Of a DNA stretch of 13,193 bases, positions 9,927-10,533 are shown piece after piece. The stretch's first letter is position 1; each line of letters starts with the position of its first letter. Under the pieces are notes generated by a model that saw only the letters and a program-made list of their open reading frames with translations, had not been told where the DNA came from and made no database searches. A program made the translations under genes and the position numbers. The stretch is from an uncultured Christensenella sp. Its GTDB lineage: Bacteria > Bacillota > Clostridia > Christensenellales > UBA1242. The DNA lies in the NCBI GenBank assembly GCA_949291975.1, contig CASEYA010000058.1:1-13193 (forward strand). The letters are read 5' to 3'.

Positions 9927-10235
9927 TTAAAGTTTAATTTTGATATCTACGCCAGCAGGCAAATCAAGTTTAGACAATGTGTCCATTGTTTTGCTTGTTG
10001 GGCTGAAAATGTCGATAAGTCTTTTGTGAGTTCTTATTTCGAATTGCTCACGGCTGTCTTTATCAACATGTGGTGAGCGCAAAACTGTTACAATTTCCTT
10101 GTCGGTTGGCAGAGGAATTGGTCCAGAGAATTTGCAACCCGATTTTGTGGCAGCATCGATGATTCGAGCGGCTGCTTGGTCAATCAAACTGTGGTCAAAT
10201 GATTTAAGTTTGATTCTGATTTTTTGTGTAGACAT
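9927..10235 (-). CDS. rpsJ: Small subunit ribosomal protein uS10 (NusE), first gene of the operon
   Basis: uS10 is a 30S head protein and, as NusE, takes part in transcription antitermination and transcription-translation coupling by binding NusB and NusG. The 102-residue product has the exact family length and pattern: [47 protein letters not shown] (quoted by ends [10 protein letters not shown] and [13 protein letters not shown]), [20 protein letters not shown] and the end [11 protein letters not shown]. The start is fixed by AAGGAGGGGTGTATG. Upstream lie a structured leader of about 260 nt and a near-consensus promoter, so this is the first gene of the S10-spc transcription unit. Confidence 0.99.
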
Positions 10236-10498
10236 ACACCCCTCCTTATAAAGTCAAACATTCCAAACATTTCTGAACAACTTTCAACTGCTGATACACC
10301 TAAAATTCAAAACACTTCTAGGCAATCTCAACTTTTGTTAAAAGTTTATCACAGAGTATACACTCCCGTGTGTGTCCAGCCTATGAGCAAAAAAAATATT
10401 TTCGTTTGGCGCAGTGCTTTTGCACCACTTGTCCGCATAAATTCTCTCTAAAAGTCGCATTTTAGAGTAACTTTATGCATCAACCCGCTCATAAAGAT
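10236..10498 (-). promoter_or_regulatory. 5' leader of the S10-spc operon (structured untranslated RNA)
   Basis: From the expected transcription start near 10498 to the rpsJ start codon the transcript would carry about 260 untranslated nucleotides, far longer than needed for initiation. The first 110 or so nucleotides form a closed three-way junction (separate entry). After it come three simpler hairpins: 10350-10372 (stem GAGT/ACTC extended by CACA/TGTG), 10330-10346 (AACTTTT/AAAAGTT, a perfect 7-bp stem) and 10299-10322 (7 bp with one G-U pair). The ribosome-binding site AAGGAGG lies 5 nt from the ATG and is not inside any of these hairpins. Long leaders before rpsJ are known to regulate ribosomal protein operons, in E. 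coli through L4. The folding is by eye, and the ligand is unknown. Confidence 0.8.
10382..10493 (-). ncRNA. Three-way-junction RNA element in the rpsJ leader
   Basis: On the transcribed strand, TATGAGC (10493-10487) can pair with GCTCATA (10388-10382), closing a domain of 112 nt. Inside it are two hairpins. The first joins GCATAAA (10478-10472) to TTTATGC (10441-10435). It then continues, through a four-by-four internal loop, into an 8-bp stem, CTCTAAAA (10467-10460) with TTTTAGAG (10453-10446), capped by a six-base loop. The second is GTGGTGC (10428-10422) with GCACTGC (10417-10411), including two wobble pairs, with an AAAA loop. The junction strands are GGGTTGAT, GGACAA and a segment from 10410 to 10389 that ends in eight U residues. 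This is a by-eye fold. It resembles autoregulatory ribosomal protein leaders in general, but I cannot assign a known class. Confidence 0.7.
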
Positions 10499-10504
10499 AG
10501 TGTC

Positions 10505-10533
10505 ATTATACTACAAATAAAGGCTAATTGCAA
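10505..10533 (-). promoter_or_regulatory. Sigma-70/SigA-type promoter of the S10-spc operon
   Basis: The -35 element is TTGCAA (10533-10528), the spacer is exactly 17 nt, and the -10 element is the perfect TATAAT (10510-10505). Transcription should start near 10498. The 25-30 bases just upstream of the -35 element are runs of A and T (AAAAAATTTTGAAAAAACAC), which fits an UP element bound by the RNA polymerase alpha subunit. Such strength is expected for a ribosomal protein operon. No equally good promoter was found elsewhere in the intergenic region. Confidence 0.88.

Follow-up and report, generated by a model that had tools for sequence, protein, structure and literature searches.

A pan-Bacillota leader RNA of the S10 operon and an adjoining candidate WhiA-like DNA box upstream of rpsJ in a Christensenella genome

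The minus strand of the window (the whole stretch of 13,193 nt that was analyzed, from an uncultured Christensenella sp.) carries the S10-spc ribosomal-protein operon with rpsJ as its first gene, and the interval between the operon promoter and rpsJ probably holds two control elements, a structured leader RNA and a DNA box. The RNA is very likely the Clostridia-type form of the predicted "S10 r-leader in Firmicutes", a membership judged independently of the published alignment. The candidate box, judging from its sequence, would most likely be bound by WhiA. Features of this region are listed in Table 1.

The elements reported by the first-pass annotation, namely a closing helix of 7 bp, a hairpin of 7 + 8 bp around a 4x4 internal loop, a hairpin with an AAAA loop, and eight U residues, were all found on the minus strand. 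In P2, the outer helix of 7 bp joined 10472-10478 with 10435-10441, the internal loop placed GUUA opposite AGAA, and the inner helix of 8 bp joined 10460-10467 with 10446-10453. P3 consisted of 7 bp, of which one was U.G and another G.U, and its first two pairs (G-C and U.G) were nearly invariant among relatives. The minus strand folded with -33.4 kcal/mol, compared with -21.05 +- 2.96 kcal/mol in shuffles (z -4.17), and none of the 200 shuffles was as good. Because the plus strand also folded unusually well (z -4.79), folding energy cannot fix the strand, and the RNA was assigned to the minus strand on the basis of the downstream operon and the comparative data. The promoter that had been placed just upstream of the junction (TTGCAA-17-TATAAT at 10533-10505) was likewise found, with a like arrangement in relatives, and the RNA starts about a dozen bases past it. 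Since a scan of the window gave three such sites against 2.9 expected by chance, the promoter call rests on its position and its presence in relatives, not on the scan. About 135 nt separate the 3' end of the junction from the Shine-Dalgarno sequence. Another stretch that may form an RNA hairpin was seen further downstream, at 10291-10331 on the minus strand (UUGAGAUU..CC-UAGAA..UUUUA-GG..GUAUCA); it seemed conserved in the window's genus (L005, L006, L007, L008) and was missing in L003.

Table 1. Features of the rpsJ upstream region in the window (positions within the 13,193-nt stretch).
Feature	Position	Strand	Basis
Promoter: -35 TTGCAA, 17-base spacer, -10 TATAAT	10505..10533	-	Scan; like arrangement in relatives
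Closed three-way-junction leader RNA (P1, P2, P3)	10382..10493	-	Fold, covariation, P1 partner test
P1 5' strand UAUGAGC, pairs with 10382-10388	10487..10493	-	Fold, P1 partner test
Conserved core, covariance model R1, 83.8 bits	10407..10487	-	R1 search
P2	10435..10478	-	Covariation
P3 hairpin GUGGUGC-AAAA-GCACUGC	10411..10428	-	Covariation, relatives
U8 tract directly 5' of P1 3' strand	10389..10396	-	Sequence
P1 3' strand GCUCAUA	10382..10388	-	Fold, P1 partner test
DNA box GACACACACGG-GAGT-GTAT, WhiA-like candidate operator	10358..10376	-	Pattern searches, relatives
Shine-Dalgarno AAGGAGGGG	10239..10247	-	Sequence
rpsJ (S10), first operon gene	9927..10235	-	ATG at 10235; S10 domain confirmed

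For the comparative analysis, rpsJ was located in 133 of the 147 genomes of the window's family. We took 110 upstream regions (30 search loci and 80 fetched stretches), of which 109 were used, L084 being too short. Among 93 anchored loci, seven yielded no core segment, and 60 of the 86 segments obtained made up alignment A2, which omits odd or wrongly segmented cores (e.g., L024, L029, L060, L063, L071, L073, L078, L086, L094, and L107) and also some close relatives. Compensatory changes, which the first-pass annotation had named as support for the fold, were sought in this alignment, and covariation was strong: the covariation score of A2 was 0.731, whereas shuffles gave 0.245 +- 0.012 and slid partners no more than 0.214. 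Further, 90.1% of its cells were paired (63.8% in shuffles and no more than 56.1% with slid partners), and two-sided changes were present in 399 cells vs. 140.7 +- 12.0 in shuffles. The number of A2 pairs showing any two-sided change, 18 of 22, was not above the shuffles (mean 17.1; 172 of 500 reached it), and this plain count was therefore not used as evidence. When 41 longer segments were aligned, two-sided changes were found in 13 of the 15 P2 pairs predicted by RNAalifold.

P1 was left unaligned by MAFFT and was therefore tested by partner swapping in 56 of the 65 loci with a box. Pairing with the own strand gave -11.26 kcal/mol, compared with -5.77 kcal/mol for strands from other loci (standard deviation of means 0.36); within each sequence, the two P1 strands are specific to one another. 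A few sequences, such as L019, L047, and L061, had little or no P1. In addition, a mixed set of Bacilli and Clostridia-type sequences (80 R1 matches, 79 of them distinct), whose alignment was fitted to the model, showed two-sided changes in 20 of 22 pairs vs. 15.7 in shuffles, a value reached by none of 500. The reading of this RNA as a real structured leader of the S10 operon, with strong covariation and rightly placed for autoregulation, was thereby borne out.

Covariance model R1 matched 172 of the 297 genomes of the order at E 0.01 (169 with a single match and three with two), 40 of 291 genomes of the class, including 27 outside the order, and 42 of 249 genomes of the phylum at E 0.1. All 51 measured matches outside Bacilli were on the rpsJ strand and ended 12-286 nt upstream of rpsJ, with a median of 119. 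Within the window's family, 94 of the 109 regions matched (89/100 and 5/9; five only partially), 60 of which had trained R1, and 15 of the 109 loci gave no match. Similarly, 23 of the 28 order loci that were found via the box and tested were without an R1 match. In Bacilli, all 44 loci tested from 80 named loci matched, with ends 12-17 nt before rpsJ, and four loci of the B. subtilis/B. pumilus type were individually weak (E 0.012 to 0.14). The Bacilli sequences examined had no P1, their leaders were without the U tract, and four to six bases lay between the end of P3 and the Shine-Dalgarno sequence. Given the matches across the order, class, and phylum together with those in Bacilli, the core represents a pan-Bacillota S10-operon leader. 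The features belonging to the window's lineage are P1 with the U tract and a DNA box standing apart from the RNA. In four loci that have lost the core (L079, L080, L081, and L088), a short hairpin closing a U-rich loop was observed between the start site and the box, as though the core had been lost and P1 with the U tract retained.

A search of Rfam 15, the covariance-model check raised along with the fold, returned no curated family for the leader, either in the window or, up to E 1, in 13 relatives; the sole Rfam match listed for the window, at 1330-1458, had E 1.8 and was below its cut-off. R1 is a well-supported model for an S10-operon leader that is missing from Rfam, with instances in hundreds of genomes. 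Earlier work on the Firmicutes S10 r-leader is reportedly that of Yao et al. from 2007. The suggestion that the RNA might be undescribed or clade-specific did not hold up: the core occurs across the order, class, and phylum searched as well as in Bacilli, and an established S10 r-leader in Firmicutes is mentioned, with numerous further Clostridia examples added, in the available portion of Eckert & Weinberg 2020 (PMC7247131).

The ligand of the leader is most likely L4, by analogy with the S10 operon of E. coli. When R1 was searched against five loci carrying 5' parts of 23S rRNA, the best hit reached 11.0 bits (E 0.26) and nothing was significant. No 23S match being better than this, mimicry lends no support to L4. 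L4 is named from the E. coli analogy, as given in the accessible text of PMC10931766, and no test in this analysis singles it out, which leaves appreciable room for another operon product (L3, L23, L2, or S10 itself) or for a NusB-S10 partnership. We consider these ligands together the less probable choice, as different leaders of one operon tend to share the same ligand protein, a principle found in the part of Eckert & Weinberg available (PMC7247131). As for the mode of action, the U tract suggests that L4, or whichever product binds, acts during transcription in the window's lineage. A run of at least six U within 60 nt before the box was kept in 56 of 65 relatives, and clear terminators were present at the U tract in some of them (e.g., L263 and L268). 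A hairpin of at least 5 kcal/mol before the U tract was absent in the window, and such hairpins occurred in 6 of 61 family loci (shuffles 6/183) and 8 of 43 wider loci (shuffles 9/129), counts from a scan window that could not span the long stems found, e.g., in L259 and L260. A general intrinsic terminator at the U-rich strand was rejected for this reason, and attenuation is weakly supported. The same absence in the window would fit a U-rich strand that is structural or accidental, with expression controlled only at translation, as would the Bacilli leaders, in which the U tract is lacking and P3 adjoins the Shine-Dalgarno sequence. Control at translation alone nevertheless appears somewhat doubtful in view of the retained U run, the terminators in some relatives, and the distance at which the window junction ends from the Shine-Dalgarno sequence.

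The DNA box lies directly 3' of P1 in the window and was absent from the observations of the first-pass annotation, though it adjoins the 3' end of the junction. Its general form is GACACACACGG-N4-GTGT; after the four bases, the second arm is GTAT in the window and mostly GTGT in relatives. The pattern ACACNNNNCCGTGTGTNTC was searched with the reversed pattern as control. With up to one mismatch, 130 matches (own count) were obtained in 100 of the 147 family genomes vs. 9 control matches, and exact matches were present in 69 of the 297 order genomes vs. 2 control matches. In 29 of the 30 loci from the exact order search, rpsJ was next to the box. The search pattern fixes several positions, and the 100% values in the box logo are partly built in. 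In Bacilli, the box was found at rpsJ in 75 of 80 loci, 61 of them with the form GACACACCCGG.

The position of the box relative to the rpsJ promoter varied. It formed the -35/-10 spacer in 19 of 109 family loci, and 17 of these 19 boxes were reversed; a twentieth, in L003, was discounted because it matched by chance in a locus of the leader type. In L240, which belongs to a different family of the order, a count by eye placed the box 77 bp upstream of the rpsJ promoter. Loci in which the junction is gone kept the box, e.g., L079-L081 and L088. As it is kept at rpsJ downstream of, inside, or upstream of the promoter, the box is regarded as a DNA element. In L235, two exact copies 176 bp apart were present upstream of rpsJ (G063:C3:4892 and 5068). 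In L303, L320, L345, and other Bacilli, GACACACCCGG was located inside the leader helix P2b, at about -90 from rpsJ.

Box matches away from rpsJ were fetched with their surroundings and scanned with Rfam. At 23 sites, spread over 22 genomes that all belong to the window's family, the box was followed by a 23S or 16S rRNA gene with the same orientation. The gene was 23S in 4 of 9, 14 of 20, and 1 of 19 sources of three sets, and 16S in 1 of 20 and 3 of 19 sources of the second and third sets. At L206, L207, L210, L211, L213, L221, and L229-L231, the box preceded a similar promoter and the stretch ended before any rRNA. Boxes inside genes (e.g., L216, L217, L219, and L236) looked like chance and were set aside. 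All 19 cases measured fell into two classes of distance from the box to the -35 of the rRNA promoters, five at 52-54 bp and 14 at 61-65 bp, roughly one helical turn apart; the cases are not independent because several genomes share a genus. Such a near-constant distance is the trace expected of a protein acting on RNA polymerase. The window's own genome gave no 16S match. In this family, 23S genes often had their own promoter about 285-470 bp upstream (L119, L124, L130, L140, and others) and often no 16S directly before them, indicating a split rRNA operon. In L209 (G045:C4), the L21 gene, which begins at 1616, has a promoter whose -35/-10 spacer is a box near 1507.

The rpsJ operon of Mycoplasma gallisepticum is repressed by WhiA, an ATP-responsive protein that binds GAYACRCY there; according to the part of that paper available, most species with WhiA have such a core upstream of rpsJ, and in most Mollicutes it follows the start site (PMC11701221). 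The window core GACACACA agreed with GAYACRCY at 7 of 8 positions, position 8 being A instead of C/T, and the Bacilli forms GACACACCCGG and GACACACC fit the published core. The auxiliary motif GTTGT downstream of the core was absent in the window, which has GTAT there, and relatives mostly have GTGT. In a search of incomplete sensitivity, which failed to detect WhiA in B. subtilis and matched 3 of 14 control genomes, 60 of 61 order genomes had a WhiA domain; the genome of the window is one of them (PF02650 at G000:C107, E 9.2e-29, 330-codon frame). Being nearly universal here, the presence of WhiA discriminates little. Moreover, B. subtilis WhiA is described, in the accessible text, as not acting as a classic transcription factor, which weakens a simple transfer of its role (PMC10714963).

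These observations bear on two other readings of the box. The ACACACGG element was read first as an RNA hairpin, and this was dropped on finding copies inside and upstream of promoters. A conserved ACACACGG...GUGU stretch forming a further hairpin of the leader RNA would agree with the possible pairing of ACAC with GUGU, with the box forming part of the P2b helix in Bacilli, and with the 88 of 109 family loci in which the box is outside the promoter spacer, mostly within the transcribed leader. We regard it as highly improbable, since the box is between -35 and -10 in the 19 spacer loci, nearly always reversed, lies upstream of the promoter in L240, and at rRNA promoters stands 52-65 bp upstream of the -35, where it is not transcribed from those promoters. 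That the box is the operator of a protein other than WhiA is a more serious, although still unlikely, alternative: one core position departs from GAYACRCY, the auxiliary motif is missing, the domain count hardly discriminates, and an ordinary dimeric repressor would also be compatible with a site that is partly palindromic. In favor of WhiA are the same target operon, the GACAC core, and clade-specific variation as in WhiA-bearing bacteria (PMC11701221, in the part available), together with the box at rpsJ in most Bacilli loci, predominantly in the form that fits the published core.

The model as a whole, in which product feedback on an S10 leader RNA is combined with a WhiA-type DNA box, is one we hold to be likely. 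The core common to the S10-operon leaders of Bacilli and Clostridia-type bacteria consists of P2, P3, and the conserved strands joining them, and in the window's lineage P1 closes this core into a three-way junction with the U tract before the last strand. An operon product in excess, most likely L4, may bind the core and lower operon expression. In the window's lineage, this control would probably act during transcription, with RNA polymerase pausing or terminating at the U tract; in Bacilli, with P3 a few bases from the Shine-Dalgarno sequence, it would probably act on translation. The DNA box just behind the junction would serve as the binding site of a protein (WhiA being the most likely) and would tie transcription of the S10 operon and, in the window's family, of rRNA to a cell signal such as ATP. 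At rpsJ, WhiA or a protein of like specificity is expected to repress, the spacer and downstream positions being suited to a block; at the rRNA promoters, the placement of the box, upstream and in phase, would be consistent with activation or co-regulation. The two elements would thus divide the labor, with general control via the DNA box and stoichiometric feedback via the leader RNA.

On a broader proposal we see the balance as even: one DNA-binding protein, probably WhiA, may coordinate both arms of ribosome production in the window's family through a shared S10/rRNA operator, with the rRNA site fixed and helically phased 52-65 bp upstream of the -35, and in Bacilli the operator would overlie a leader helix, one stretch being read as both DNA and RNA. 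To our knowledge, a transcription factor tying rRNA to ribosomal-protein genes is outside the usual picture of bacterial ribosome control, and among the 15 papers listed out of 948 in a literature search, which was not exhaustive, none joined WhiA with an rRNA operon. The operator may matter more than the RNA, and the shared S10/rRNA operator deserves follow-up. Given the arrangement in Bacilli, some of the conservation seen in their leader sequence may be due to the DNA operator. Further, L4 control of the S10 operon in Gram-positive bacteria is now directly testable.

Like the Firmicutes S10 r-leader, the window RNA is located upstream of rpsJ on the same strand and in Firmicutes including Clostridia, and R1 matched 44 of 44 Bacilli leaders. 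Unlike the Bacilli leaders, the window form has P1 and the U tract, and its WhiA-like box is outside the RNA core, not inside P2b. The rpsJ motif RLC-47-1 is likewise a ribosomal leader candidate in the 5' UTR of the S10 gene of Clostridia-type bacteria; compared by description only, it differs from the widely spread window leader in being restricted, in the portion of the source available, to three genera of Peptostreptococcaceae (PMC11109978). In E. coli, L4 controls the S10 operon, and an S10 leader of that kind is known only in some gamma-proteobacteria according to the accessible text (PMC10931766). The window RNA shares with it the operon and, as a working model, product feedback via a structured leader in which a U-rich site may be involved. 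For the candidate box, the counterpart is the rpsJ operator of M. gallisepticum, from which it differs in position 8 (A in the window), in its second arm (GTGT/GTAT instead of GTTGT), and in its additional occurrence upstream of rRNA genes, the term "rRNA" being absent from the available text of that paper; the two have in common the GAYACAC core, rpsJ as the target, a position commonly downstream of the start site, and the presence of a WhiA gene (PMC11701221).
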